The notes below the pieces were generated by a model. That model saw only the letters and a list, made by a program, of their open reading frames with translations. It had not been told where the DNA came from and made no database searches. A stretch of 64,000 nucleotides of DNA. It comes from Acholoe squamosa (Eukaryota; Annelida; Polychaeta; Phyllodocida; Polynoidae). A program made the position numbers and the translations under genes. The DNA lies in contig OX439046.1 in the NCBI GenBank assembly GCA_949317995.1, positions 60,987,774 through 61,051,773 on the forward strand, in the 5' to 3' direction. Every line of letters starts with the position of its first letter. The stretch's first letter is position 1. Positions 4,864 to 52,627 of the stretch are shown piece after piece.

Positions 4864-5203
4864 GGCGTGAGCGATAATTACCTAAAAACAATCAGTTTGT
4901 TGATGTTCCGCTTGTAGCACGTGCGTTTCCGCATGACGTCACCGCGTCCAGTCTCGGCTGACCTCTCGTGACCTCGTGAACCCGTGGGGAAATGACGTCA
5001 TGAAAGCTGGCCTGTCGCCATATTGTTTTTCGGTAACGTCCAAGACGGTCGAGCTCGCTCCCCTCTTGGATTTTACCGGCTAGCAAACTCCTCTCTGCTC
5101 CTCCAGAGTCTGTCTCCTAGTAGGCAGACTCCGTCTGTGTCAGCCCCGGCGCCGTAAAAGCCAGAAAAAGGAGTAGTTTACTCCCGTGGGTGATTCCCCA
5201 GTC
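4864..5203 (+). other. Leader of the LTR-like element
   Basis: A 340 bp GC-richer stretch between the left repeat and the gag-like ATG. It contains several TGACGTCA/ATGACGTCA-type sites (near 4935 and 4990) that resemble CRE/ATF sites. No clear tRNA primer-binding site was identified just after the repeat. It is probably the 5' untranslated region of the element. Confidence 0.45.
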
Positions 5204-8083
5204 ATGGCTGAGGAATCCGTAGCTGCAGCCAAGCTATCCGGTGACCCGGATAAGCTGACTCCGTCCGCAGAAGCTTTTCCGGAAGCTTTGTCACCTGTTA
5301 CACAGGAAGAGAGCGAGATGATGGACGTGGAGGAACCCACGGATCGCTCGTTCGAGGATAAGCTGGCCTCATTCTCACTGAATGAGCCAGAGAAAATGTT
5401 GTCTCCACTCCCACCCGAGGGATCCGGAGGGGCTACGAGTGCTGAACCCGCAGCGACTGGGTCCGAGACCGCACAGGTCGACGGACCGAAGAACCAGTGG
5501 AAGCCAGCAGTGGCTGACCCGTTCCTGGCAGAATATGATGGTCGCTACCTGTACGTCCACCCGGAACTACAGGCACAAGTGACCTATGCTGACGGTACAC
5601 CAGTTAGGTTGGACCCGAAGGTGAGGATAGCTGTCGAGGGCGTCATGGTTCCCTAACAGCTGGATAGGACGCCTCCCGAATGGCTCCGAGACTGGCCGTG
5701 GTTCCAACGGGGACTCATGGTGGACGCTGCTTTCCGCGAAGCAGTGTACGAAGCCAACAGAGCTTTCCTGCTCGGAGGATATCCGAAGCCGGATAAGACC
5801 CTGTGGAACGTCAAGGCGACGAACATTGATTGGGTAGGCTGCGTCTTGGAACCCGAGGGGCAGACTTACCCACGTCGTTGTGCCACCCGGCCCCAGTACC
5901 GGACCACAAAGGAGTTTCAGGAAGCCGCTGCCAACTTTGAACAGTGGGATGACGGTTACTACATAACCGAGCAGGAGTTAGTGGATATTCAAAACAATTC
6001 GCTAACAGGCATGAACCGAAGTGCAGCCCTTCGGACGGTTCTCGTCCGCTGAATGACTGCAGAACAGGAGGCCCGGGAAGAGGCTAAGAGGGCAGTGGAA
6101 GTACCCGCACCTCCTATCCCCGACCTGAAGCTTGCCACCCGAACCACAGCCGGTTCTGCATCAGCCACCGGCAGTACTACCACCCCGGTAGAAGCCACGA
6201 CCTCCAGCGCATCCGGAACCCAGGAACCAGAGGAAGACTGGAAGGTCAGCAAGAACCGAAGGTCCGCTGCTCGGAAGCTCAAGAATCTCCTGGATTCTGC
6301 TAGAGCCGAGCCGAAACCCAGCACCTCAGCCACTGGTAGTACTGCCACGGATGTGGAGTCGTCCGACGAGGAGTCGGTGCAAGAATCCTCGGTTGAGTAT
6401 GATGAGAAGGCAACTCCATCAACTCAAACCGAGGCCGAACGTTGGGCTAACGCCAAGTCCGGATTCAAAACCCGGATTCCGACGTGCTTCTCCGACTGTG
6501 CGTACGGAGTAAAGAATGACGGCTCTACCCTCTATGCCTGCCCGGACTCAGTCAACAAAAATAATGAGTCAGATGATGAAGATTGGATGCGTCTTTCGGA
6601 CGAGGACCCCAATCCGAGCAAAGCCTATCGAAAGATGTGGCTTATGCTAAACCACACCGAAGGGTATTACACTTATACCCAGAGGAGAAAGCTGCGTTGG
6701 GCTCTTGAGAAGTGGTACGGTGATGACCAAAAGTCCTGTCCCTTCTCTATCTGCCAGGATGCGAGTGATGTCTCGGTCCGGACCTGGAGTACTCCAGCCC
6801 GGTTCCAAAGGCATCTGGTAGAGGCCCACTTCCACCATCACCCGGTTTACATTTGTGATCCGAGTTATGGTAAGAAGGGCAAGAAGTGCACTACGAAGGT
6901 TCAATATAACCGACGTAGCGATCTGGCGAGGCACCAGAAGAAATGCCACGCAGAAGGTTTAGATGGGGCTCGGAAGCGTATCATGGAGCTTCATCAGGAA
7001 CTCATGAAGGAGTTCGACAGTCTGAGTGAGGATGCTTGGTCTAAGATCCGACCAGGGGACCAAGTCCTCCGCGAGGTTCCGAAGACCAAGGATTCGAAAC
7101 TCTGCACAAAGATAGTTCTGACTCCTGGAAAGGGTAAGCTGGACATGCACGAGTCTCTCTGGCAGAAATGCGAGGAATCCGGCAAGGAGGGAAAGAGAGC
7201 TCGTGAAAGGAGCAGAAGGGACCAGAACCGTGGTGGTAACGCTAATGGTCAGACCACCACTACTAAAGTCAGAGCAGATGACCGCTCCAGGTCCCCTCTG
7301 GCTCGGCACCCCCATGAGCAGGTTCAGGGCACTCCTGTGTTCAAGAAACCCGAACCTGCCGGATACGCTGGCGCCGCATCAAAGCCTGGGAAAGTTAACC
7401 CCCGTAACTTTCTGTCCTTGACCCAGGGACCTGGACCTGAGAGCCAGACCTTGGTCGTTGGAAAGGGTGGTCGACTTGTTCCCAAGAAGACCTCAGCACC
7501 TGCTGCCGCCGGATCCGCATTCGCTCCAGCCGCCCTCCCAACCAACTTCACCCCGGAGCAGTTAAACCTTTATCTGCAGATGGGGCTGAAGCAGAACCAG
7601 CCTCCTACGACTCCCCCCAAGGCTGTCGCTGCACCAGAGAAACCAAAAGACGCCATTACCATTAAAACCGGTAATGCGGAAGTTTGGTTCGAGAAGTCTC
7701 GCCAGGGGGAAGCAGATGTCCATAAGGCCATCTACACCCACTGGGAGAAACGTGTCCGCGAGAAGGCGACAGAATTCCACCAGGGTCTTCTTAATGATAC
7801 CCTGTTGTGCATGAAGGAGGTTGTGGATGCTGAAAAGCAGCGCCTCGAGACCCTCATTCGGGACAATGTAAAGACCCAGGAGGAGGCTGCCGCAGCTGCC
7901 CAAGAAAAGGCAGCTATGGACGTACACATCTTGGAGAAACGTGTCAAAGAAGAAATCAACCGGAATACCAACTTGAACACCAAATTCATGAGGGTATTCG
8001 GAGTCGATCTCGACGAGTGGGACGGCACTCCCGAGTCGGCTCTAGCTCTTCTTAAGAAGAAGCATGCGAAGAAATCCGCCTAA
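5204..8083 (+). pseudogene. Gag-like protein frame with two in-frame stops
   Basis: A single frame of 960 codons from the ATG at 5204 to the stop at 8083, broken by TAA at 5654-5656 and TGA at 6050-6052 with no change of frame. Protein-like sequence continues on both sides of each stop. The contexts (CCT-TAA-CAG and CGC-TGA-ATG) fit C-to-T changes of CAA and CGA. The N-terminus is acidic and Ser/Pro-rich. A central pair of zinc-finger-like motifs (about 6737-6951) has CPFSIC...HLVEAH followed by a Cys-x10-Cys...HQKKCH arrangement. The next part is basic and proline-rich, and the C-terminus (about 7690-8060) is Lys/Glu-rich with coiled-coil character. Position between terminal repeats suggests a nucleic-acid-binding gag-like role, but I do not recognise the family. 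GC content is far above that of the neighbouring DNA. Confidence 0.7.
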
Positions 8084-13881: not shown

Positions 13882-16475
13882 TTTTTTTAGGTTAAGTTTT
13901 CTTTATTGTCTCAAAGTTTCTATTACAGCGTTATTGAGAGTACATCATGTTGTCATATACATGTAAAGTAAGAAGTAAATAGAAATTGAGACTAAAGAAG
14001 GTGAAGGACCTCATCCCCACCACTAGGGTGTATGGGTTGATAATTCTGGTCCAGCCTACGCTATGAATATATATGTATAACTTAACAATGACACACGTAT
14101 CAGAGATATAAATGAGGAAAGTGTACCAACATGATAACAATAATAATAGTGTAGAACAAAATTAAATCAAGTTCAAATTTAAAGTAATTAATAAGAGGAA
14201 ATAGAGAGAGAGAAGCCAAAGTATGGTTTGACTGGGTAGTACATCAGGATATAAAGGGGTAGGTTCAGTAGTTGGGACGCTCACCCGAATCTAGGAACAA
14301 GTTCCTTTAGTAATTTTTTATTATTGGATTTAAAGATTGATAAAGTCTCGGTATTTCGTCTTATTGCTGGGAGAGCATTCCAACTTACGGCACCAAAATA
14401 TTCAATACTTTTCATATATATGATACAGTATTAGGGAATAATACCTTACAGGTTGGGGCCAAATGCTGTCTTGTTCTTATCTGTCTATGATCAATATAAT
14501 CAATACATCTAGATCTTGTATACATGTAGTTCAGTAGGTGTATTTGTCTTCTGTCAGATAGGAAATTACAATTTGATATATTGTGAACATAACGGGTATT
14601 AGTAAGATGTGGCACTTGAAGACAGATTTTCAAGCATCGGTTTTGAGCATATTGAAGCATTTCAAGGTATTTATCATGGGTGGTATGGAATATAATATCA
14701 GCATAGTCCATATAAGGTAGAATAGTGGTTTTATAAATTCTCAGTGATAACTTAGTATCAATATATTTCCTTAATGCGCATAACAGGTATGTCTTATGAG
14801 CAATTGTTTTAACCTGTTTTTTTATATGTAAACTATAATTCAATAGCGGATCCAATGTGACCCCGAGGTATTTATAACTGGGTACAACTTGTAACATCTG
14901 GTTATTCATGGTGATGTTAGCAGACAGAGTATTAAGCTTCATGGTACATGAAGAAAAGATCATTATTTTTGTTTTAGCAATATTAACCGATAGCTTATTT
15001 TGTTCACACCAGGTATTATAAATTTCTAAATCTTCCTGTAGACTCATTTTAGCAGTTTCAAAATTATTATGAGAGGTATAAATTACAGTGTCATCAACAT
15101 ATAGTCGAATTTTACATTTTTTTATACACTTGATTACATCATTCACATACACCAGAAATAGTAGAGGTCCCAATATTGAACCTTGAGGAACACCACATAC
15201 CACACTACACATTCTAGAGGAGATACCATTTGCCTTAACAATTTGTTTCCTATCAGCAAGATAATTTTTAAACCAATGATATGTATCAGATCTTATACCA
15301 TAATTATGTAGTTTAATAAGAAGCACTGAATGATCTACGGTATCAAACGCCTTCCTCAAATCAATGAAAGCAGCAACAGTAGAATTACCAACGTTCAAGT
15401 CTCTTTTAATATCATCAGTGAATTTAGCTAGAGTATCTACAGTGCTAAAACCAGGACGGAAACCACCTTGAAAGTTTGTTAAAATATTTTCATTTTTCAA
15501 GAAACCATATAATCTATTGTGAGCAATTTTCTCAATTAATTTACAGGGTAGAGGAATTAATGAGATAGGCCTATAGTTATTTACCATCTTTAGATTACCA
15601 GATTTTGGTATGGGGGTAACTTGGGAGATTTTCCATTTGGCAGGTACCGAGGCAGTTGTAAAAGATAAATTGAAAATTTTTACTAATTTATGAGGGTCGT
15701 GAGAGAAAAGTTTTTTCAGGATTTTCGAGAAAATCTGCTCAATGGCTGAAGATTTAAGTGGGTTAATATCGTGAACTAATTTCATAACTTCTTGTGCGTT
15801 GGTTTGGAAATTTTCCATAATATTAGCAGTGGGTGGATCATAACTTTTCCATGGTGTGTGCATGTTAGTAGCTAATTTGGGTCCAATATTAGAGAAGAAT
15901 TCATTAATAAAATCAGAAGTTTCATCTTTAGGGATAGTCGTATTATTATTTTCATGATCCATAAGAGTTATATCACTGGGTCTGTTCTCATGACCAGGGA
16001 TTAATTTGTTTATAATACGCCAGAACTTACGATGGTCATTTTTATAGACTTCAGCTTGTTCTTTATAAAATAATCTGCGTGCCTTATTGATCAATTTATT
16101 TGATTTGTTCCTTAATTTATCAACAGTTTTCCAGTCCTCCTCAGTTCCAGATCTACGGGCTGCCCTTAATTTTAAATTTTTGTCTCTTATGAGTTCAATA
16201 ATTTGAGGAGTAATCCAGGGATCTCTTAACTTATTAACAGTAAATTTATGGACTGGACAATAGGTGTCAAGGATCGAGCATACTGCTTTTTCATATTCAT
16301 CCCATGCAGTGTCTACACTATTAGTCTGATTAAATACAGTCCAGTCATAATTATCAAATGTAGCAAATAAAATATCATCAGAGAGTTTCAAATAGGAACG
16401 ACCTCTAATATCAATTTTTTCGGGTTTGATATGCCATTTCTTTCTAACCAAGTAGATAGGAAGAAGATAGGTTTA
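13882..16475 (-). mobile_element. 5'-truncated LINE (jockey/CR1-type superfamily)
   Basis: A minus-strand non-LTR retrotransposon remnant. It starts inside the C-terminal end of the endonuclease domain (near 16460-16475), keeps the reverse transcriptase and C-terminal region, and ends in a 3' untranslated region with AATAAA (complement at 13902-13907) and a short A tail (T run at 13882-13888 on the plus strand). Truncation at the 5' end is typical of incomplete target-primed reverse transcription. No clear target-site duplication was found. Confidence 0.85.
14281..16472 (-). pseudogene. LINE ORF2 remnant: reverse transcriptase
   Basis: The frame is open from just below 16473 to the TGA at 14412. 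It shows a few endonuclease-end residues, then the reverse transcriptase with FIDLRKAFDTVDH (motif A), GVPQGSILGPLLF (motif B) and YVDD (motif C, 15090-15101). A C-terminal Cys-containing region follows (AQNRCLKICLQVP). Near 14412-14420 an extra AT in an ATATAT run shifts the frame. The usual C-terminal end (with SWNALP and LVPRF motifs) is readable in the next frame down to the stop at 14281-14283. Truncation and frameshift make it inactive. Role when intact: copying element RNA into DNA at a nicked target. Confidence 0.88.
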
Positions 16476-30100: not shown

Positions 30101-31538
30101 TTGGTCTTACAAATGATTAGTCACAATCTGGCATATAACTTCAAAGTGATTAGATGGATTCAGTGTTGGCCCCAGCACTGGTTGGTGTACTAAATTACAT
30201 ATTAAAGATTGGATTCACTGATGATCTCATACAGAGCAAACAAAGCTGAATTGACTGATCTGTCTGGTCAAATGGCCAATGACCAGATATTTTTGTTTGT
30301 GTCACTGTCCGACTGTTCTCATGTATAACAAATTTCATCGATTTTCACGGACTAATTATTTCACAGCCAGGAAAAAAGAGACAGGCTGTGTATGTTCTAT
30401 GGCTAGCAGGACAAGAAAGGACTTGACTTTAGGACATCAACAATTACCCGTATAGCAGATGCTAAGCCATCAACAAACACTGTGGCTGTATTAATAATAC
30501 TACTCCAATTATAGCAATCTTATCCCTACTCTGATTAGATAACAAATGTGTACATACAATTCTCATCATCATCCTCTTATAGGCCTACCCTAGGATAAAG
30601 TTAATGCAGTCTGTGCTTAATCCAGCCATCTTATGTTGTTAGTTTCTAGCAACGCTTTATATTGCCTCATGGATTATTCATAAATGGATGTAAATATTCT
30701 CGACTAACTTCAGGGAATTACCTTAATGTCTTGTTGATAAGCGTAAAGATTCCATGGATTGTCATTTACACATGCATGTGCCTTCGTGCCAGAGTCTGAT
30801 TCCTTTTTCAAAACACGACAAGTTCAGGGATTCATTGTCAACATTGTGATATCTGACTGCTTTGTTTTTGTCTTCCATGCATTAGATATTACACGCATCT
30901 GCTTTAGCTTGAATGATCAAGTATCGAGCATCACCAAAAGCCCTACACATATTCACACTTATGAATATATATGCCAGGATATAAGTAGTTACTCTATAAG
31001 TGACTAGCCTGTAGCAGGAGGAACTTCTAAGGCCAGTTAGTATTAAGGATACTATACATTAAGTTATAAGCAATAAGTTCATCCGGATCAACTGCCTCAA
31101 CACATCATGGTCTTACAGCATCTAAGTCATAGATGATACCCTAGGAATGGGAATATACTTTAGCAGTCTCAGTTGCTCACTTTAGTAAGTTTAGTACCTG
31201 GAAGATACAGTGATCTATGCTGGGATTGCTCAGTGAGAATAATGTATTAAGTGCTCTGTCTGATTAGTTATTAGTACTCTTACTGGTACTAAATTGCAAC
31301 GGATATTGATATCAACAAATGAGACATAGGGTTTGAGAGTTGAACTTTTCGCTTGATGTGCGTGGATACTTGCTGAGCTTCACATTGGATTACCACAAGG
31401 ATTTATCTTCTAAAGAACCCAGGAGAATGTACTTGAGACATGAGTTTATTACTGAATCAATTTATCACTCTCATTTACTGTGTACTTATCGCTGAGTGAA
31501 GCTTGGTTTTATACCGAGCAAGGTTACCCAACTCAAAC
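27141..31538. other. Non-coding DNA upstream of the host exon
   Basis: About 4.4 kb with no credible coding exon. Likely intergenic or 5' intron DNA. The promoter and any 5' untranslated exons of the gene at 31539 may lie here, but I cannot place them: no convincing TATA box or CpG-rich stretch stands out. Confidence 0.45.
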
Positions 31539-32252
31539 ATGTTTCGAGGCAAAAAGGGGAAGGAAGGGAAAAAGGATGGGAAAAAAGAGACCAAGAAGGA
31601 GACCAAGACTGGTGATGCGAGTACTGCGGTTCGGGCGAGTGCCCCTGGTGTGGAGCTCCATCGACGGGTCGCTGCAAATTCTAGTCAGAAATCCGGTGAA
31701 ACAGTGCCTATGATAGTCCTTCAGGATGGTCCAGAGAGCAATCCCAAGGTTCGAACTCTTGACCTAAACTCTCCAGAAGATCAGCTTTTAATAGGCTGTC
31801 CGGATGTTGTAATCGCCCCAGCCACTCCGGATGTTATCCACAGTCCTCTTGGAGGAGACCCGGCGCTCGGAACTCCAAACTCACATTATTCGGATTTATC
31901 CCCAACTGATGTGAAAGGCCAACGCCCCACCTTTCTCCAACATCTACACCGTCACCAACCACACCAACAGGAGAATAACCATCATGTACGTGTGGATTTG
32001 TCTCCGGTTGATGAAGTTTTGCCTATCCTGTATCAACAACGTAAGAAGGAACATACTACTCGTATAGCTACTCATCAAAAGAGGTCAAAGTCTCCCCCTA
32101 GCAAAAGCCTTCTCACCCCAGGAAAATCCTTAGGGGCTAAATTCTCTCCCCGCCTTGGACGAAGCCTCAGGTTTCGTAAAGGAAGACTAACTTTTGAACC
32201 AAGGGACAAGGATATCCACCCTGAGGATGACAAGAGTTCATTCTTTGCTAAG
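31539..32252 (+). CDS. First coding exon of an unidentified host gene (partial)
   Basis: An exon of 238 codons starting at ATG 31539 (A at -3, with an in-frame TGA at 31497-31499) and ending at AAG|GTGAGT, a near-consensus 5' splice site at 32252/32253. The intron phase is 0. The frame stays open only about 30 codons into the intron. The protein begins MFRGKKGKEGKKDGKKETKK, a strongly basic lysine tract. It continues as a low-complexity region rich in Ser, Pro, His and Gln, with short hydrophobic motifs, and ends in an Arg/Lys-rich part (SLLTPGKSLGAKFSPRLGR, then a stretch ending DDKSSFFAK). No signal peptide, membrane helix or folded domain is visible. It looks like a disordered N-terminus of a scaffold or signalling protein, but I do not recognise the family and no later exon was found in the window. 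Confidence 0.65.
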
Positions 32253-32258
32253 GTGAGT
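32253..32258 (+). promoter_or_regulatory. 5' splice donor of the host exon
   Basis: GTGAGT directly follows AAG, matching the metazoan U1-pairing consensus at nearly every position. The coding sequence loses protein-like character after it. This supports intron DNA from here onward. Confidence 0.7.
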
Positions 32259-34582
32259 GTTAACTTAGTTATAGTTTCTTACCAAATTCGTGTGATCCTC
32301 CATGAGAGTGGGCATAGTCAGACCTTCCCGACTCCTAAATATGTCTAGTCATGCTCATACATAAAGCAATGTAACCCCAGTCACCTTTGGAAAGCCTCTA
32401 AATCACCAGCGAAAAATGTCAGAATCTGCCACAGTAGAGAAAGGGCAATTAAGTTTTCATCATTCTAATATCTTTAGGTACCGGTAAGTATTTAAGGAAC
32501 TTTTATTGCAGATTAATTACTGCATGTACTCAGATGAATAGATATGCTGATTGCTCGTCTGGCACAGTAGTCGATAATGACCAGGCAAGTTTTAGTCCCA
32601 CTACTTTTAAGGTGTTTAAATTGAGTGTGCAGTAGACCTTTGAAATCTATGAAGTTTAATATATCAGCTGTATATACAACAATCATAATGATACAGATAC
32701 CAAGAGTTAAATACCATAAAATATGTGCAGATAGTAGAAGTGGAGACCTTTCCTTAAGGTACCCCAACTACACACAACCACTACTATTTGGAATTATCAA
32801 GATTACGGTGGATGATCATATATATATATAGGGTAGAGCCACCCTGAGTCAGACAGACACCTAAAGCCGGACACCTTTTGCATTGAATTACATAAACGAT
32901 ATGAAAAATCCAGCTATCATTTGAATTAGACATGAAAACTCAGGTATCATACTCTGTAACAAATGAAGAATAACATGTAAAACCCCTGTCATATATGGTT
33001 TTACAACTGTACAAACCCAGGGTGTTTTTGTTATATTCTGAAGATGAAGAATGGTGAGTGGATGGAGATCCTGGTTTGATGTGTCAATTTGTTAGGTCTT
33101 AACCTCCAATTTTAAAGGATTTCGAAGGCAATATACACATTTTTGCTAATAATTTGACTTGACAAACCTGAATACATCCCTCATGTTACAGTATGGGAGT
33201 TATTCTTCTATAACCTTCAGATTACACCTACAGTCGGACACCAATTACACCCCACCTGGGACACAATTACATCATGATTTCAATACTAATATAATGGACA
33301 TTTCATTACAAACAGAATCCGTCATAATATACCTGTACTCCTAGATCTGAATATTTAATCTGTGTTTGGTTTACCTACTATCTAACACCTAAACTTAATC
33401 ACTACTCAGTCTGTCCATAGAAGTCATGCTCATCTGGGCCTGTAGACTGATCTGTTATAAGTGTGCAAAATTAAACATCTAAGAGTATGCTGGAGAGGAG
33501 TATTGTATTAGCTTGGATTCCTTAGTGTTATATGCTATGTGCCTTTATGGAATATTTCAGATACAATGACCCCTTGTGTCTGTATCAATTAGATAACATA
33601 GTGTCTGACTCTAGGGTCACCTCTGGCATGAGCTGTCTGACTTGAGGTGCAATTTGATGTTTTGGAGACTAAATATGTACAGCTCATTTATGCATAAGTA
33701 TAGGAGGGTTTCATCAAAGCTCCTTCAAGGATCTTGAGGGTAAAGTATTATGTATTTACTGATGAAAAGGAAAGTAGAATTCATCACTTTTAAAGGTACA
33801 AGATTTGAGCACCAAATATAGCCACCTCCTTTGTCCGAAATGGGTGCCTCTACCCTAGTGCCCCTACAACTGTTCTGTACAGTGAACATCTAAAATGCAC
33901 TTAACTACATGGTGCAGGCATTAATAACCCATAGTTAAATGATGTAATGGCCAAGCACTGAAGCTTTGTGAGGATTTGAAGGAGAGCAGTCACAGTATAT
34001 TAAGAAATTACCTCCTGATGGTGTTTACAGAACTTACTAGTGAAACACAACCATTTGCATACGACCTCATGTTGTGTGAAAGTATGCCTTTTCAGAACCT
34101 CCTATAGAGCACAGTGGCCGCCTCCTATCAATAGCCTCTGGGTGCCAGAAACAACCTAAGATTATCCTAGAGCTCAGTGGTACCAGTTAAAACACTATGA
34201 AGCCAAGGTTCTTTATCCTGAATAAGGAGGCTATAACATCAAGGCCATCAACCTGATTCAGCCTACACCAGGAAACATGATTACTGAGTAATACCATTTG
34301 CCATTATTAAAACTGTAATTACTGTATCAGGATTAAAAACCCAAATAATAACATGTTAATAATCTGATTGATATTATGCCGTAATTAAGTGTGTACATGA
34401 GTAATTGAGGCTACAGCCATTTCAAATTATAAGCAAGGAGCAGACCTCTTTTTGCATCGCTCTGTATGCCATGTTGGTAATCACAAAATACAATGGAGTT
34501 TCTTCTTCATGCTCTATTTGTACATTGCCAGTGAAATTATCAGTTTGTAACCTAAAACGGACACTAACTGGTAACCCACCCC
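32259..34582. other. Probable intron DNA, possible weak inverted repeat
   Basis: No second exon was recognised. TAGGGTAGAGCCACCC near 32829 is roughly mirrored by GGGTGCCTCTACCCTA near 33841, which may mark a degraded 1 kb inverted-repeat element. The remainder shows no structure I can support. Confidence 0.35.
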
Positions 34583-43865: not shown

Positions 43866-44489
43866 TGAGCAGCCCCTTGTGAGGCCCCTAAGTCTCAAAA
43901 TGCTCCTATCCCTCAGAACATTGTGGGATAGGGGCCCTTTGAGATTTTAGGGCCCACCTGAAGCCCCTGACCTACAAAAAGTTCCTATCCCACAAATGTT
44001 TCTGATGTAGGGGCCATGTGCATTTGGCCCCTGTCTCACAAAATTATTTGTGGGATAGGAACTATTTGTGAGATAAGGACATGTCAGGCTCCTATGTTTC
44101 AGAAAGTGACTATCTCTCAAAACCCCTATCCTTAAAATGGATAATCGATGTTATCTTTGATCTCTACAGTTCCCACACAAAAGTAGCCATGGGTCGAACT
44201 TGATCAGTTATGGGTAAAACAGGTTAGATTTATCCAAAATAGGCTAACTGGTTCAAATTGGTCAAATGAGGTCAAATTAGGTCAGAATTGGTCAAAGCAG
44301 GTCAAATTGGACAATGTACAGGTCAAATTAGCCAAAGATGGCCTATTTGGGTCAAATTGGGCAAATTTGGTTAAGGTAAGAAGGATTTAAAATAGGTCTA
44401 ATTGAATCCATTTTAATTGGCCAACAATGGGCCATAATAGGTCAAAATGTAAAAGTAGACCCATTATGAATAAAACAAGTCAAATTGGC
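43866..44489. repeat. Left arm of a fold-back split by the LINE
   Basis: The outer part holds repeated CTATCCC(T/A)CA and GGGATAGGGGCC units. The inner part holds many divergent copies of GGTCAAATTGG. Both motifs reappear in reverse orientation at 51714-52627. Without the LINE the arms would form a fold-back of about 1.5 kb. Confidence 0.65.
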
Positions 44490-44770
44490 AATCATGGCCG
44501 ACAGTGAGTAGACGCAAAGGTTAACCTCCCCCTGAAATCGTGGATTTCATGAAGTGAGTGGATATAACAAGGTTCTACATTGCGACAGGAACAAAAGTAA
44601 AGGTACCTGGATAGAGAAATCCGAACTTTTGAATCAATTAGACCACTGATTGTGGTAATATTTTAGTGTATTTCGTGTGACTGGAATCCACAGCGCCTCA
44701 ACTGACCCAGTTAAACCGTTGACAGTGTTATATATAAATAGACTTGACAGCCTAACACTGACAGGTAAAC
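44490..44770 (+). other. 5' untranslated region of the LINE
   Basis: About 280 bp before the ORF1 ATG. A TATATAAATA stretch lies about 40 bp before the ATG (near 44731). An internal promoter is expected for a LINE, but none can be defined from sequence alone. Confidence 0.4.
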
Positions 44771-47215
44771 ATGGATGTAAGGCGAGGTGGGCAAAAGCTG
44801 CGCTTTGGTGGACATAGGGGCCCCAACTTCAAAGACAAGCCACTATATAGAAGTGAGAATATAAATAATGAGGAATTTAACAGTGGGCTATATTCCACTG
44901 ACTCATGGCCCTCTATAACACAACAAAGCAATAAAGCTGATTTCAAACGCCAGTCACAACAGGTAAAAAGGGGCCGTCAGCCAAGCGATGAGGACTCACC
45001 TGAGTCAAATAGCAACACTGGCCGCTATACTGGTAACAGATCTAAAAAACCAGAAGCTAAACGTACGGCTAGACCTGAAAATCTGGGGGCATCCTACCCA
45101 TATATGAGTAGGAGTGATGGTTCTCTGAACAATGGTGTTGAATATAAACCCACAACACTGGAAAAATGTTTCAACGACATGAAATTATTAGTTGAATCAG
45201 GAAATGATAGACTATCTGATAATTTTGGTGACTTAAGACATGAGCTTACTGAAACAAACAAGAAATTCAATGAGCAATTAGGCATCCTAGGGAGAAGGAT
45301 AGATAGGGTGAAACAGGACGCTGATGAAGACATAGAGTCACTGAGGAACATGTTTACTGAGACTAAAAATGAGGTCTCTAGACTGAGGGATGAATTAAAT
45401 AATCCCAGATTGAATGCACGTGCCCCAGGGGACCAAGAGAGAAATGCAAATCAGTTTTATTCACCAAAGCGATTAAACGTCATAATTGATGGGTTGAAAG
45501 TCACCAATTTGGATGACCCATATGAGGAAGTTTATGACCTGTTCACGAGCATGGGACTTGAAGTATCACCAAATGAATTGTCGTATGTGGTGAGACTCAA
45601 GAAAGCCAACTCGGATAGTACAAACCCAGAATCAGTACTAGTATGCTTCACCACAGTATGGAAACGTGACTTATGCCTACGTATAAAGTCAAACCTAAAA
45701 GGTGATGGCCCCTACAGCCAAGTCTTCATTAACCCTGACGAAGAAACTACAGTAAGGAAAACAAAGGGACTAGTTAGAAGAATTGGTAGGTACTGTAAGG
45801 AAATTAAAGGGTTACAGGTAGCCCTCAAAGGCACAAACATTATCATAGAAGGTGAAAGATATAGTGCCTACAATCTCCAATCTATTCCTGATGAATATAA
45901 ACCCCGTGAACTGAGAATGATGAGCCCCACCGAGGACCTGGACCTGGAACAAAATGGCCAGATATATGGGAATAGAGGGCGGGACCTGTTCAGAGGTGGT
46001 GCCAGATATAGAGATGCTGGTGGTAGTGAAGAAGGTAAAGCAAAACTATTGATTAACAAATACAGACCTCGGGATTTACATGAGCGTCGCTATGACGACA
46101 TCGATAGACAGACCTCTAGACTGGGCCCAAATGAAGACCAAAACTGGAGGACTAGCCCTGCTAATGGGAATGCGAGAATAGATCACAGATATGCCGATAA
46201 AGGCCATATTAGAAGAAATGAAGATCGTAACCGGAGGTCACCACCCAAGGGCGATGGCGGGAGAATGCTGCCAAGGCGATGTATGGAGGAATTTGAGAGA
46301 ACTAGACGAAATGAGCGTTCCAACCCAGAGTCGCCATCTGGAGTAGAAACAAGAAGTAAAACCAAATCCCGAAATCCAACAAATGGGGTTCCTGGCAATG
46401 ACACAAAACCACCCGACAGAGGACACTCAAAATTAGACAGTAAAAAAGAGGAAAGAAGGAAATTCTCTTCAATCAAAGAAAAGCTAGAAGAGGCAAAACG
46501 TCTGGCTGCCAGTACTGAACTATACCAACAACAGACGAGATGTGGTATTACCTTCTGTGGCCCTCGCTCCTTCCTTAGTAACTTCTATCCCTGCCTTATA
46601 AGGCACGACGGGATTGAGTTTACGAGCTCAGAACAACTGTATCAATACTTGAAATGTATCGAACATGATGATCTCTATAAAACACAGAGAGTTCTATCAG
46701 CTCTCACGGGACTCGATGCAAAAAATGCCACTCATGGACTACCTGAGAGTGACGACTGGAAAAAGAAAAAGAGAGTGCCAACGATGAGACTTAGTATCTC
46801 CAAAAAATTTGTGCAAAACGAAGACATCAAGGAATCTCTTTTAAATACATTGGGATCAAACTTGATAGAATCTAGCATGGACTCCTACTGGGGCGGTTTT
46901 GCACGCTATGGTGACCCAGTGTATGAAAATGACGAGTACGATGGTGAAAATACCCTGGGAGTTCTATTAATGGAGCTCAGAGGCAAACTGTATGACCAGG
47001 AAAAGGCAGAGGCAGGAAAAGTCGACGCGGTAACTAGTTCAGAAACTGTGGGGGAGAGTGCTAGGGTAATGACGTCACACGAGACCTCCGGCGAGAGCGA
47101 CGAGATTTCCGCCATCTTGTCTGATGAACGTGAATCCGCAGACAGCTCGATTGAAGAATTGTACGATAAAACAGCATTCAAGACTAACAGAAGGAGGAAA
47201 TCATACAAGAAGTGA
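44771..47215 (+). CDS. LINE ORF1 protein with coiled coil and NADAR domain
   Basis: 814 residues from an ATG in strong context (A at -3, G at +4). Order: a basic Gly/Arg/Ser-rich N-terminus; a coiled coil at about 133-215 (heptads such as LRHELTETNKKFNEQLGILG); an RNA-binding-like region at about 230-380 (RLNVIIDGLK, VFINPDEETTVRKTKGLVRR) that resembles the RRM plus C-terminal domain of L1-type ORF1 proteins; and a charged linker to about 585. A NADAR (YbiA-like) domain follows at about 589-740, with SFLSNFYPC, FTSSEQLYQYLK, KKFVQNEDIKESLLNTLG, DSYWGG and NTLGVLLMELR. The NADAR Glu in SSEQ and the N-LG-LLM-R end are kept, so the fold is probably intact. NADAR enzymes act on ADP-ribose-type or riboflavin-precursor N-glycosidic bonds. 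What it does in a LINE is unknown. The frame ends at a UGA directly before the SGNH frame. Confidence 0.85.
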   Translation: MDVRRGGQKLRFGGHRGPNFKDKPLYRSENINNEEFNSGLYSTDSWPSITQQSNKADFKRQSQQVKRGRQPSDEDSPESNSNTGRYTGNRSKKPEAKRTARPENLGASYPYMSRSDGSLNNGVEYKPTTLEKCFNDMKLLVESGNDRLSDNFGDLRHELTETNKKFNEQLGILGRRIDRVKQDADEDIESLRNMFTETKNEVSRLRDELNNPRLNARAPGDQERNANQFYSPKRLNVIIDGLKVTNLDDPYEEVYDLFTSMGLEVSPNELSYVVRLKKANSDSTNPESVLVCFTTVWKRDLCLRIKSNLKGDGPYSQVFINPDEETTVRKTKGLVRRIGRYCKEIKGLQVALKGTNIIIEGERYSAYNLQSIPDEYKPRELRMMSPTEDLDLEQNGQIYGNRGRDLFRGGARYRDAGGSEEGKAKLLINKYRPRDLHERRYDDIDRQTSRLGPNEDQNWRTSPANGNARIDHRYADKGHIRRNEDRNRRSPPKGDGGRMLPRRCMEEFERTRRNERSNPESPSGVETRSKTKSRNPTNGVPGNDTKPPDRGHSKLDSKKEERRKFSSIKEKLEEAKRLAASTELYQQQTRCGITFCGPRSFLSNFYPCLIRHDGIEFTSSEQLYQYLKCIEHDDLYKTQRVLSALTGLDAKNATHGLPESDDWKKKKRVPTMRLSISKKFVQNEDIKESLLNTLGSNLIESSMDSYWGGFARYGDPVYENDEYDGENTLGVLLMELRGKLYDQEKAEAGKVDAVTSSETVGESARVMTSHETSGESDEISAILSDERESADSSIEELYDKTAFKTNRRRKSYKK

Positions 47216-47221
47216 GTGAAA

Positions 47222-47896
47222 ATGAATTTAGCATTGCAAACTCCACAGACATCATGGCCCATTGTCGAGGGTTATGGCGACTCAAGATTTAAGTATCTTG
47301 AACAGTTCCTGACACGTAAAATGCCTACTCTACGTGGTATTTACTACCGACCGGGGGCTAATATAGAAAATGTATCTAACGCTATAGTTGAGAGATTGAC
47401 CTATGACCCAAGTAGAGTTGACCTCATATTCGTCGGCGCTGGGATAAATGATGTCACGAGATTATCACACAATCCATTTAAAGTAAATCTACGGTACATA
47501 AACGTAGAATATGCTACACAGAGGCTGTCTGACATGTATGAAGCACTATTAGAAAGTGCTTATTGTGTCAACCAAAATGTCAAAATTCTTATCTGCACAA
47601 ACTATGGCGTTGATTTGAGGACAGCAAACTCGAGAGCTGGACCTCATCCCCACCAGGCAATCTGTGATGAAATTGTTATGAGGACCAACAGTCGTATAAA
47701 ATGGATTAACAGAGAGAGCCTCGTCATGACCCCATATCTTGAGCGACTTTGTCACTCATACCATCCTCTACAAGGGTTCAAGCACCACTATGAAATATTA
47801 TTGGACGGATGTCATGCTCACCGAAATTCGATGGATAGAGCCGGTGATCTGATTGCATCGGCCATCCGAAAGATGATCCAAACAGGATGGATTTAA
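47222..47896 (+). CDS. SGNH/GDSL-hydrolase-like frame of the LINE
   Basis: 224 residues from ATG 47222, two codons after the ORF1 stop and in the same frame. SGNH signatures are visible: GDS within GYGDSRFKYL (block I, nucleophile Ser), GINDV (block III, Asn) and DGCH near the C-terminus (block V, catalytic Asp and His). Length is near the family norm. Esterase-like SGNH modules are known in ORF1 of CR1-like LINEs, where membrane or lipid ester roles have been proposed. It could be made by readthrough of the UGA, by reinitiation at 47222, or be cut off by a nonsense mutation in this copy. The intact catalytic residues argue for recent function. Confidence 0.75.
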   Translation: MNLALQTPQTSWPIVEGYGDSRFKYLEQFLTRKMPTLRGIYYRPGANIENVSNAIVERLTYDPSRVDLIFVGAGINDVTRLSHNPFKVNLRYINVEYATQRLSDMYEALLESAYCVNQNVKILICTNYGVDLRTANSRAGPHPHQAICDEIVMRTNSRIKWINRESLVMTPYLERLCHSYHPLQGFKHHYEILLDGCHAHRNSMDRAGDLIASAIRKMIQTGWI

Positions 47897-48565
47897 ATGC
47901 TGATCCTCATCTGTGACTTGAGTATGGCGCTGTGATTACATAGCCAAATACATGCTTATTACTAATCTGCCATGAATTATCGGCCCAGTAGCAGTTTAGG
48001 TATTGTGGATATATACTTGAACTCTGACAATATTAGACTACTGAGGACTTTAATTGAATAATTTAAAACAATGTAGCTCTGTAACTGAAACTATAAGAAA
48101 TCTATGAAAGGGGGAGCTTAATCCATCTAAAAAGAACCACATATAAGTGTTCTCGTTTGATAATTGTTGAATTCGGTTCATTGGTGTTGGGATCGGCCTC
48201 AAGTCGAAGTCTACAATCTTGGGCCAGATTTGTTGTTATGTACGACTTTCCTCTTTTCTTGTTCTACTTTTGAATTTTCTAATTACTGCATTGTTACGCG
48301 GTGATTTATCTCACATAAGGTGGTAAACATGTGAATTTCTACCACCTTTGACACATTAGCCCTACATTGTAGTGCCTGTGTTCAACCACTTTTGCACTGG
48401 TTAGGTTTCTTCCTTTTGTATTTCTTTTTTGCCAATCTGTACTGGTCATCTATTTTTTGTATAACGTCACTACAGGTTAAATGCAGTCAACTATGGTTTT
48501 CTGCAAGTTAGACCATAAGGTGGTATGGGTCCGGAGGAGGATAATCATTTGGCTTGAGCCCGTAA
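47897..48565 (+). other. Inter-ORF region of the LINE
   Basis: 669 bp with no frame, unusually long for a LINE. It is pyrimidine-rich from about 48390 and contains a hairpin, AAGGTGGTA (48317-48325) paired with TACCACCTT (48340-48348). AAGGTGGTA recurs at 48517-48525. A good 3' splice-site-like TTTTTTG..CACTACAG ends at 48475. It could hold an internal ribosome entry element, a splicing relic or a second promoter for ORF2. None of these is shown. Confidence 0.55.
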
Positions 48566-51424
48566 ATGGTTTTATATAACTATAATCAGGTAAGCTCAAG
48601 TAAAGGTCTTAAGTTCATCAACATGAATACCCAGAGTTTAAATGATAAGATTGTTAAATTGAGAGACTTACACTTGACAGTTGATTACTTGTGTATAACA
48701 GAGAGCTGGCTGGATAATCGTGACCAAAACTTCAATATTGATATTGATGGTATGAAATTATATCGAAATGACAGAATAAATATGCTACGAAAAAGTGGCG
48801 GAGTAGCCTGCTATGTCAATAATAAATATGCTGATTATACTATAGGATTGGATGAATTTACAATCAGTAATACTGATATAGAAACTTTAGGCCTCCTAAC
48901 TAAGTATGGAAATCAAAAATACCGCCTGATCATAACAGTGTATAGACCACCAAATGGTAATACTAAAGAGTGTTATAGGCAACTTTCTGCCATGATTAAA
49001 AGTAATGCAGCAAAAAATAAGGAAATCTGGATACTTGGAGACCTGAATGTCAACACACTAATTAGAACAAGTAGAAACTTTAAAATAATGACATCATTTC
49101 TTAGAAGAACCAATATGAAGTATCTTGCTACTAAAGCAACATACTACCACCCACGCGGAAAGTCAGCTCTTGACCATATCTATGTAAACTCACCACATGT
49201 CAAGTACCATGGGATAATTAATGACAAAGTAGGTGACCATTTTCCTGTATTTGTGATTAAGAAACAAAAGAACATACCGAGTAGCCCTACTTTAAATATC
49301 ATTGGTAGATCATATAAAGATTATGATTCTGACAACATCAGAGCCAAGGTGTTAGAACACCAGTGGTCCCTTGATGAATTTGTACACCCTATCAACATAT
49401 ATGAAGAGTTTGTTGATTTTGCAAATGAGTATCTTGATAATAAACACCCAATTAGAAATATGAAAGTAAAAGACACCAAAAAGACTGGTTTTGATGGTGA
49501 GGTCGATAGGATGGTTAAAATAAAAAAACGCCTACTTAAGAAATCACGAAAGGTCCCTAGGGGTACTTTAAATAGGTACCTCAAGCGAATCAGTGACATT
49601 GATAAGCAAATCAAACGACGGTTATATAACAACTGCAGGGACGAAATTGTCTCAAATCTCAATAAATACCCCCATGATCCGCGACGATTCTGGAATGAGA
49701 TAAATAGGATCTGGAAGGGCCCAAAGGCAAAAGTAAGACTGAAACTGATTGACAGGGACGGTATAGAAGTTAGTGACACTCAAACAGCTGACTTTGTAAA
49801 TGAGTATTATGTGTCTATCGGGAGAGACTTAGCTGCGGCTATACCACCGGTACATGATGCGACCCCAGTGATTCCATTGGGTCGTAATGAAGTAGAACAT
49901 GATCCGGTGGGTGAATTACATCTACAACCAATTGACATCAATAGGGCGAAAAGGATTATCTCAGAGATCAAACAACATAAAGCCTCGAATATACATCAAG
50001 TGAGATCTCAGGTAGTAAAAGACATCCTAAAATTAAAACCGGAGTTACTGTGTAAAATTGTCAATGACTCTATTGCTCTACAGACCGTTCCATCAGTTTT
50101 TAAACTGGCCTGTGTTATCCCCTTACCAAAAGGGGGCGATTTACATAAAATCTCAAACTGGAGACCCGTTAGTCAACTGAACCTTGTTTCAAAACTGCTT
50201 GAGAAAGCTATACACGCACAGGTGATGCATTTTCTACTTGAATTTAATATAATTTCTGGAAATCAGTTTGGTTTTATGCCTAACAGATCAACTACACAGG
50301 CTATTTATCAACTAGTACAAGAACTATATGAGCATAGAAATAGGGGTGAATCGACTGTCATGGTCTTTCTAGACCTGAGGAAGGCCTTTGATACGGTCAA
50401 CCATGAGATCCTACTGGAAGAACTTAAATCTATCAATTTTTCTGATGATACTGTGAATTGGTTTAGGAGCTACCTGAGTGAAAGGTCTCAAAGTAGTTTG
50501 GCCAATGGTATGGTGTCTAGAAATTGTGATATAGAGTGTGGAGTCCCTCAAGGCTCGGTACTTGGCCCCTTGTTGTTTGTTATTTACATAAATAGGATTA
50601 CTGATAAGATTGAAAATTGTAATTGTATTATGTATGCGGATGACCTTGTGATTTTCATTAGTGGTAATGATAATGACATCATAAGTTACTTAGTTCAAGA
50701 TGACTTGAATAGGATTTTCAAGTGGTGTTGTTGCAGGAAATTAACTATTAATAATGAAAAAACTAAAGTATTATGGTGTCTTCCACCAAGACTATGTCAA
50801 TATCCGCTTAGTCCTATTTATATAAATCAGTGTATACTGGAGGTTGTAACAGAATTTGATTACTTAGGTGTCCCAATTGATAAAGACCTGAATTTCAAAC
50901 CATTTGTGTTGAAAAAGAAGGCCTCTGTGCAAAACAAACTGTATCAGTTAAGAAGGATCCGATATTATATGACACATAAACTGTCACTACGACTGTACAA
51001 ACAAATGATAGTTCCTATATTTGATTACGGTGATTGCATCGTTGACTGTACAAACAAGAATCTGATTAAGGCCCTTGAGACCCTACAAAATACCTGCCTT
51101 CGTGTATGTTGGCGTATTACCAATCCCTATGATATGTCCAGGGAAGAACTGCATGAAATCTCAGTCTGTGTCACACTAGAAACTAGACGGCAGAAGAGTT
51201 TGTTAAAAATAATTTATGCACTGTCCAGGAATGATGATAATATTGTTGTGCCTGTGCGTAATTTACGGGGTAATAATAAAATAAAGATAAGGGTACAGCG
51301 TGCTGCTGGTCAGCTATATGAAAAATGTCCCCTATACAGGGGGGCTATACTCTGGAACAAACTCCGTCCTGAGGTACAAAGAGCTGCCTCTATAGAAGCC
51401 TTTGTATCCCTATTACCATTATAG
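48566..51424 (+). CDS. LINE ORF2: endonuclease and reverse transcriptase
   Basis: 952 residues with no frame break. An APE-type endonuclease fills about 1-245, with NTQSLNDK, ITESWLD (catalytic Glu), YRPPNG, LGDLNVN (Asp/Asn), SALDHI and GDHFPV. Reverse transcriptase covers about 500-780, with NWRPVSQLN, FLDLRKAFDTVNHE (motif A), GVPQGSVLGPLLF (motif B) and YADD at about 690-693 (motif C). A C-terminal domain ends with a WNKLRPEVQRA motif usual in jockey/CR1 relatives. No RNase H domain is visible. All catalytic residues I can check are present, so this protein may be active. The likely ATG is 48566; conserved sequence begins at about residue 14, so the next Met at about residue 20 is an alternative. 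Confidence 0.9.
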   Translation: MVLYNYNQVSSSKGLKFINMNTQSLNDKIVKLRDLHLTVDYLCITESWLDNRDQNFNIDIDGMKLYRNDRINMLRKSGGVACYVNNKYADYTIGLDEFTISNTDIETLGLLTKYGNQKYRLIITVYRPPNGNTKECYRQLSAMIKSNAAKNKEIWILGDLNVNTLIRTSRNFKIMTSFLRRTNMKYLATKATYYHPRGKSALDHIYVNSPHVKYHGIINDKVGDHFPVFVIKKQKNIPSSPTLNIIGRSYKDYDSDNIRAKVLEHQWSLDEFVHPINIYEEFVDFANEYLDNKHPIRNMKVKDTKKTGFDGEVDRMVKIKKRLLKKSRKVPRGTLNRYLKRISDIDKQIKRRLYNNCRDEIVSNLNKYPHDPRRFWNEINRIWKGPKAKVRLKLIDRDGIEVSDTQTADFVNEYYVSIGRDLAAAIPPVHDATPVIPLGRNEVEHDPVGELHLQPIDINRAKRIISEIKQHKASNIHQVRSQVVKDILKLKPELLCKIVNDSIALQTVPSVFKLACVIPLPKGGDLHKISNWRPVSQLNLVSKLLEKAIHAQVMHFLLEFNIISGNQFGFMPNRSTTQAIYQLVQELYEHRNRGESTVMVFLDLRKAFDTVNHEILLEELKSINFSDDTVNWFRSYLSERSQSSLANGMVSRNCDIECGVPQGSVLGPLLFVIYINRITDKIENCNCIMYADDLVIFISGNDNDIISYLVQDDLNRIFKWCCCRKLTINNEKTKVLWCLPPRLCQYPLSPIYINQCILEVVTEFDYLGVPIDKDLNFKPFVLKKKASVQNKLYQLRRIRYYMTHKLSLRLYKQMIVPIFDYGDCIVDCTNKNLIKALETLQNTCLRVCWRITNPYDMSREELHEISVCVTLETRRQKSLLKIIYALSRNDDNIVVPVRNLRGNNKIKIRVQRAAGQLYEKCPLYRGAILWNKLRPEVQRAASIEAFVSLLPL

Positions 51425-51706
51425 CTACGAACATTAAGACCAATATCAATTGAGCTCTGACGTTAATAAGCCAAACATTGAATGAGATTAACCGGTTGCA
51501 TGAGTAAATTGTCCTTCGAACTTTGACCCATTTAACTCTCCTTATTATTGATGTAGTTTGATGTCGAATTTTCCTGTTGATATGTATTTGCTGATTATTG
51601 CACCTTTTTGATGTACCGGTACACTGGCCTCTTTGGCAACTATGAAAATCATACATTGTTACGACAGTTACAGCCAAATAAAATATTTCAACAACAACAA
51701 CAACAA
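51425..51706 (+). terminator. 3' untranslated region, polyA signal and CAA tail
   Basis: AATAAA at 51677-51682 lies a few bases before a (CAA)n run that ends in A residues. A short simple repeat at the 3' end is used by CR1/L2-type LINEs instead of a long A tail. The region itself has no open frame. Confidence 0.65.
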
Positions 51707-51713
51707 AAATTGG

Positions 51714-52627
51714 TTCACAAGATTAGATAAATCCTGGGCAACATGACTGACATATAGTCAAGATTGACCTACTTTTACCCATTTTGACCTAGTTTAAAGG
51801 GCGGCTAGCACAGACAAGACGTACCTGCGTTAACAACCCAATCAGCACTGGAGCATTGGGCCATGCTTGTCCATGCTTGGCCCAATATAAGCCAACATTG
51901 GCCCAGTGTATCCTTGCTACCTGGGAAGTCATGTGACGACCCATTGACCAATCAGGGCATTACAATTTTTCCTCTGGGTCCCGCAAATTTATCAACGATC
52001 CTTGAGGCAGTACTCATGTTGAAATTTGTTGTGCTAGCCCCGCTTTAACCCAATTATCCCTGACTGGCCCATATGATCTATTTGACCTGATTTGGGCAAA
52101 TTTCCCTGATTTGACCCATTCTTCCGGCAATTTGACCTGTTTTATCCGGAAATGGTCCAATTTAACATATTTTGACTTGATTTGATCAAATTCATCCGAT
52201 TTGACCCACTTGGCCAATTTTGGGACAAATTGACCTGTCTTATTTGGAATGAGTCTAATATGATCCAAATTGACTTTATTTGTCCATTTTTGGCCACTTT
52301 GACCCTTTTTGCACAGACCTGATTTAATAAGATGTATTCCGACCAATTTTGATGTAATCTGACAAGATTTGCCCTATTTTGGGACAGATGGACAAAAGAT
52401 ATATGTGAATTGGGCTAAAACAGGTCAATGTGGTTTAAAATATTGTTTTTGCGATTATGGGGCCATTTCAGTTTTTTTTGTGATTTAGGGACCTGACCTA
52501 GCCCCTATGTAGCAAAAGGCTGTGTTATATAGGGACTATTTAACAGTAAGGAACTTGACCTAGGCCCTAGTTCTCAAAACCGACGATTTTGAGGGATAGG
52601 GACTTTTTCTCACAGCCCTGCTCTTAG
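51714..52627. repeat. Right arm of the fold-back split by the LINE
   Basis: Contains many divergent CCAATTTGACC units, the reverse of the left arm, and an outer part with CAAAATCG..GAGGGATAGGGAC that mirrors the left outer part. CTACTTTTACCCATTTTGACC near 51769 pairs with GTCAAAATGTAAAAGTAGACCC in the left arm. It includes about 250 bp (about 51800-52046) absent from the left arm. Confidence 0.6.

Follow-up and report, generated by a model that had tools for sequence, protein, structure and literature searches.

A 64,000-nt stretch of the genome of the annelid Acholoe squamosa (contig OX439046.1 of assembly GCA_949317995.1, positions 60,987,774 to 61,051,773; hereafter the window) carries a long interspersed nuclear element (LINE) with three open reading frames (ORFs): ORF1, which contains a NADAR domain, a short ORF for an SGNH hydrolase, and ORF2, with 814, 226 and 952 open codons in the respective frames. 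Its membership of the LINEs rests on an ORF2 with endonuclease and reverse transcriptase (RT), and on dispersed, often 5′-truncated copies that share a 3′ end. Other LINEs with the same order of NADAR and SGNH – called for by the original prediction, a model's reading of the sequence – were found in the host genome, namely a second copy of the same family (L009) and representatives of two diverged families (L012 and L013).

We favour, with a probability of roughly one half, an explanation in which NADAR would remove ADP-ribose to overcome a host block, whereas the SGNH esterase, translated by reinitiation, would be optional. The broader notion of a LINE-borne counter-defence against host ADP-ribosylation – an ADP-ribosyl hydrolase tethered to the ribonucleoprotein (RNP) and kept across diverged families, plus an optional, separately translated esterase – is more tentative.

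The NADAR domain of ORF1

A NADAR had been proposed at about residues 589–740 of ORF1, and a hidden Markov model search with PF08719 indeed finds it at residues 598–740 (E 1.4e-21; 77.9 bits, where the cut-off is 35.1); the NCBIfam model TIGR02464 also matches above its own cut-off. Sequence family, predicted fold, catalytic Glu and Lys and the YbiA-type Glu all place the domain in the YbiA type of the NADAR superfamily. In an oomycete NADAR, E43, K50 and E125 (or their Escherichia coli counterparts) are mechanistically relevant, with D130 and W133 among the contacts to ADP-ribose (PMC11543638); alignment and offset map these to E621, K628, E700, D704 and W707 of ORF1. The first three never vary across the 90 rows of an alignment comprising the window, the database protein P0001 and 88 homologues chosen by similarity; D704 is kept in 83 of these rows and W707 in 86. 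Within a narrower set of 12 sequences – 11 copies from the host genome and P0001, which represent five lineages, with seven rows belonging to one near-identical family – E621, K628, E700 and W707 are invariant, and position 704 holds D, E or N. Both the predicted fold and the intact catalytic residues fit ADP-ribose removal by the ORF1 NADAR.

The same domain could instead be an active N-glycosidase on a substrate other than ADP-ribose, engaged for instance in RNA processing or acting on a small molecule, as YbiA does on riboflavin intermediates. The TIGR02464 match agrees with this, as do a suggestion that the NADARs of retroelements process RNA intermediates (PMC12477816) and the fact that the targets of stand-alone NADARs are left open in PMC11543638. 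However, ORF1 retains the residues that other NADARs chiefly rely on to hydrolyse ADP-ribose, and fusion to an RNA-binding-like region would suit a nucleic-acid substrate better than riboflavin, so that we regard this explanation as rather unlikely. A little less likely again is a NADAR that acts as a reader, binding ADP-ribose and so guiding the RNP to the PARylated DNA nicks from which target-primed reverse transcription sets out: PARP1 and PARP2 are indeed active where LINE-1 integrates, and retrotransposition drops when both are lost (PMC8535693), but none of E621, K628 and E700 varies among the compared sequences, and binding alone may not need this.

The coiled coil and RNA-binding-like region expected upstream of NADAR appear in the AlphaFold model as a long helix (pLDDT 78–91 from model residue 31 on) and an RRM-like domain. 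For the region resembling a C-terminal domain (CTD) that follows, there is a profile match (probability 87%, E 3.9e-6) to the N-terminal parts of six further NADAR proteins. On this model, ORF1 is probably an RNP protein of LINE-1 layout – coiled coil, RRM, CTD – with NADAR attached through a long basic linker. That the NADAR frame is a host gene is not supported, as it sits within a repeated element.

P0001 is itself an 863-aa ORF1, located on a 9672-bp database contig, and is 34% identical to the window ORF1 overall, with 55–56% identity in NADAR, 41% in RRM/CTD and 24–31% in the remaining parts. A profile built from these two NADARs retrieves 88 proteins, eight of which (P0004, P0006, P0010, P0011, P0013, P0015, P0016 and P0021) have, by eye, an N-terminal stretch resembling the ORF1 CTD ahead of NADAR; LINEs with NADAR may therefore be widespread. 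In a quick tree of a 15-row set, the eight group with the window NADAR (support 92, not starred), and a single clade of LINE-type NADARs is neither shown nor rejected (approximately unbiased test on 10 rows, p 0.136). Searches of viral and prokaryote contigs with patterns for the LINE-type NADAR yielded no relative that could be confirmed; P0001 had no match in prokaryote contigs, nor had ORF1, ORF2 or SGNH any in viral contigs.

A separate ORF for the SGNH hydrolase

The predicted SGNH/GDSL module is borne out by its motifs, which run in the order GDS, PGA, GxND and DGCH, and by PF13472 (Lipase_GDSL_2), matched by all five family members compared (best E 2.1e-8, none above 1), although the window copy itself (E 0.0015, 19.5 bits) stays under the curated cut-off of 32.9; one of the five additionally matches MEIOC (E 0.0096). 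GDS is conserved in each of the four rows that extend so far; of the other positions, G45, N76 and H198 are kept in 5/5 and D195 in 4/5 (Val in L012). A loosely spaced S-G-N-D/H pattern, composed after viewing the sequence, is matched by 3 of 200000 shuffles. Scored by the codon use of ORF1 and ORF2, the SGNH frame reaches 0.069 bits per codon, against −0.33 to −0.57 for the five other frames.

With a profile of the five members, the top PDB row is 4c1b (‘ORF1-encoded protein’), which we take to be the ZfL2-1 esterase; at its weak E of 0.24, with unrelated rows next at 0.35–0.71, GDS, PGA and GxND are in register. Rows for polyubiquitin were an artefact of summed weak repeat scores. Structure prediction, which returned the NADAR fold in the AlphaFold model, was useless for the fold of SGNH (single-sequence model, pLDDT 35.6), and no homologues were found in the protein database at E 1e-3 among 167 candidates.

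Both modules are thus in the element, but not in one ORF1 as originally proposed, because an in-frame TGA lies between them in the window copy. ORF1 stops with TGA in the window and L009, with TAG in L012 and with TAA in L013, and 6, 11 and 18 nt, respectively, separate these stops from the SGNH ATG. P0001 likewise terminates at the homologous place, shortly past a shared SSIEEL motif. Decay of the window copy alone is ruled out by the same TGA in L009 and the nearby stops in L012, L013 and P0001, as is a single ORF with NADAR and SGNH by the stop in three families; the same stop separates the element from type IV (esterase) ORF1p, which has the esterase within ORF1. Since the gaps between stop and start are short, translation may proceed by termination and reinitiation. 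Alternatively, stop-codon readthrough would make SGNH a C-terminal extension of ORF1, in one protein, as the shared frame in the window and L013 would allow; yet the SGNH of the ageing copy L012 is out of frame with its ORF1 and behind one more stop, the ORF1 stop codon takes three different forms, and each SGNH ORF has its own nearby ATG, all of which makes readthrough quite improbable.

Copies and families in the host genome

The host assembly comprises 1.48 Gb in 63 contigs. Of the 28875 first-look candidates in our search with ORF2, 48 were scored, which makes the counts given here lower bounds. The window LINE belongs to a family of at least four copies: the window, L009 (full length, 99.7% alike) and the 5′-truncated L010 and L011, which begin inside SGNH and inside ORF2, respectively, and both end at the common CAA-repeat 3′ end. 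It is a young full-length copy that has recently moved. Between the window and L009, ORF2 differs by five amino-acid changes and no silent ones, too few to judge selection.

Among 20 sequences scanned for the two modules (the window and L009–L027, chosen from the 48), NADAR is present in 12 and SGNH in seven, with neither in five (L011, L017, L021, L025 and L026). They occur together in the window, L009, L012 and L013, which by ORF2 identity (99–100, 60 and 49%) make up three families. SGNH without NADAR is seen in the truncated L010 and in L014 and L016, with no ORF1 found upstream, and NADAR without SGNH in L015, L018, L019, L020, L022, L023, L024 and L027, all of one family. This family is the most multiplied, accounting for at least 37 of the 48 ORF2 rows (with a 958–959-aa frame, mostly without internal stops), and in eight of eight copies its 1141–1242-nt gaps hold no trace of SGNH (best tblastn E 1.3). 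As its sister in a quick ORF2 tree of 20 rows (L026 excluded) is the SGNH-bearing L016, with support of 100, the most economical explanation is that SGNH was lost; SGNH is dispensable in this thriving family.

L012, with stops in the ORF1 tail and ORF2, and L013, with one stop in ORF2, are for that reason considered ageing single copies. Nonsynonymous divergence (dN) between the window and L012 is 0.22 in NADAR, 0.22 in RRM/CTD, 0.25 in SGNH and 0.50 in the linker, with synonymous sites saturated. That NADAR and SGNH are mere passengers, without a role in transposition, would agree with the lack of SGNH in the most multiplied family (8/8 ORF1-bearing copies examined), but is hardly credible given the low dN against saturated synonymous change and the catalytic residues retained across families.

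A possible mode of action

In the explanation we favour, ORF1 would yield an RNP protein that carries the NADAR enzyme on its basic linker, a ribosome restarting a few nucleotides past the ORF1 stop would make the separate SGNH esterase, and the ORF2 endonuclease-reverse transcriptase would copy the RNA into nicked DNA. NADAR would strip ADP-ribose off guanine, or another group, on element RNA, complementary DNA, target-site DNA or protein, and integration would then not be blocked by host ADP-ribosylation. Bacterial, phage and oomycete NADARs remove ADP-ribose from guanine (PMC11543638, PMC11125620), and PARP1/2 assemble at LINE-1 nicks and aid integration (PMC8535693). Judged from sequence, the likeliest job of the ORF1 NADAR would be the removal of ADP-ribose from the nucleic acid of the element or from its target site. 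The SGNH protein may act on lipids or membranes during RNP traffic – the SGNH/esterase of ZfL2-1 binds lipids (PMC3905857) – a job that would be optional, because a successful sister family without SGNH keeps NADAR.

If NADAR is active, some LINEs would carry an editor of ADP-ribose marks, a hint that retrotransposons are restrained by ADP-ribosylation on the part of the host. The roles of the two enzymes could then be told apart by comparing natural sister families that have SGNH with those that lack it.

ORF2, extent and surroundings of the element

In ORF2, the match to PF00078 (RVT_1) is accompanied by one to PF14529 (Exo_endo_phos_2) marginally under its cut-off. Where human L1 ORF2p has the RT block GTRQGCPLSPLLF, the window LINE has GVPQGSVLGPLLF instead. 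This block, together with the length and C-terminal motif, is presumably CR1/L2-like (Jockey superfamily) and not L1/Tx1 – Tx1 being a clade of the L1 group – an assignment made from these features. The window also contains a second LINE RT frame of 679 aa at 14412–16451 on the minus strand (RVT_1 E 3.7e-40), about 31% identical to the ORF2 described here.

Comparison with L009, which lies on a different contig, puts the first securely shared base at 44494. The heptamer AAATTGG abuts both ends (Table 1), yet occurs four times within 44000–44490 and may do so by chance; no target-site duplication of at least 5 nt was found at the ends of L009, L010 or L011. The gap before ORF2 (window 47897–48565), which has a counterpart of about 1.1 kb in the SGNH-less family, is possibly an ORF2 translation signal, although this is a guess. 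An Rfam scan of the window gave no match at the gathering score.

An old inverted repeat, about 65% alike, flanks the LINE at 44215–44357 and 52080–52242, so the copy may sit within an older repeat, and a TCAAATTGG-like array lies at 44253–44371. Elsewhere on the plus strand, ORFs of 156 and 676 aa at 5186–8083 are without Pfam match, in a 4-kb bin of 53% G+C compared with 35–43% in the remaining bins, as is a 281-aa open frame at 31503–32348, perhaps a host exon.

Table 1. Features of the LINE, in window coordinates.
Feature	Position	Strand	Basis
Weak candidate target-site duplication AAATTGG, 5′ copy	44482..44488	.	
Whole LINE copy, ~7.2 kb, 5′ untranslated region to (CAA)6 tail	44490..51706	+	Sharp limits of 99.7% match to L009
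ORF1, 814 aa, stop TGA 47213-47215	44771..47215	+	
Long helix / coiled coil, ORF1 residues 148-209	45212..45397	+	AlphaFold model residues 29-90
RRM-like domain (beta-alpha-beta-beta-alpha-beta), ORF1 residues 236-320	45476..45730	+	AlphaFold model
CTD-like domain (helix + 3 strands), ORF1 residues 326-365	45746..45865	+	AlphaFold model and profile match
Basic linker, isoelectric point 10.0, low model confidence	45926..46519	+	
NADAR domain, ORF1 residues 598-740	46562..46990	+	PF08719 and AlphaFold model
NADAR residues	E621 46631-46633; K628 46652-46654; E700 46868-46870; W707 46889-46891	+	Mapped from PMC11543638
Gap, 6 nt, ORF1 stop to SGNH ATG	47216..47221	+	
SGNH hydrolase ORF, 224 aa	47222..47896	+	PF13472, motifs
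SGNH residues	S21 47282; G45 47354; N76 47447; D195 47804; H198 47813	+	
Non-coding gap, 669 nt, upstream of ORF2	47897..48565	+	Stops in all three frames, codon use not coding-like
ORF2, 952 aa	48566..51424	+	PF00078 E 5.7e-44; PF14529 E 4e-6
Apurinic/apyrimidinic endonuclease motifs in ORF2	48620-49252	+	
RT motifs in ORF2: FLDLRKAFDTV, GVPQGSVLGPLLF, YADD	50366-50656	+	
AATAAA and (CAA)6 3′ tail	51677..51706	+	
Weak candidate target-site duplication AAATTGG, 3′ copy	51707..51713	.	

Comparison with known systems

The original prediction knew of no described pairing of NADAR with SGNH, and among the open-licence PMC papers searched none names the two together; a NADAR in a LINE ORF1 is, however, already on record, in the Tx1 LINEs of the Pacific oyster Crassostrea gigas (PMC12477816). 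Going by their description, these share the YbiA-family NADAR in ORF1 with the window LINE; the account drawn on (PMC12477816) makes no mention of SGNH. The same source describes Ectocarpus Gypsy elements as a further group of retroelements with NADAR, in this case in Pol.

An SGNH hydrolase upstream of ORF2 is likewise familiar from ZfL2-1 and other LINEs whose ORF1 is of type IV (esterase) (PMC3905857, PMC4120745). In those, the esterase is in ORF1, whereas in the window LINE it forms a separate ORF behind an RRM-type ORF1, and the transposon-specific His of ZfL2-1 (H191), four residues before the oxyanion Asn, is Gly. According to PMC3905857, none of the esterase ORF1p in RepBase contained an RRM; the window LINE now combines an ORF1 of the RRM type with an SGNH enzyme in one element, albeit as separate proteins. 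SGNH as an additional ORF has a parallel in the GDSL ORF3 of bdelloid LTR (long terminal repeat) and Athena retroelements (PMC5408684), which belong to other element classes, add it to gag and pol as a third ORF and, in the description drawn on, come without mention of NADAR. Each module is thus already known from retroelements, while their pairing, their order and the separate SGNH ORF appear to be new within the open-licence PMC papers searched.
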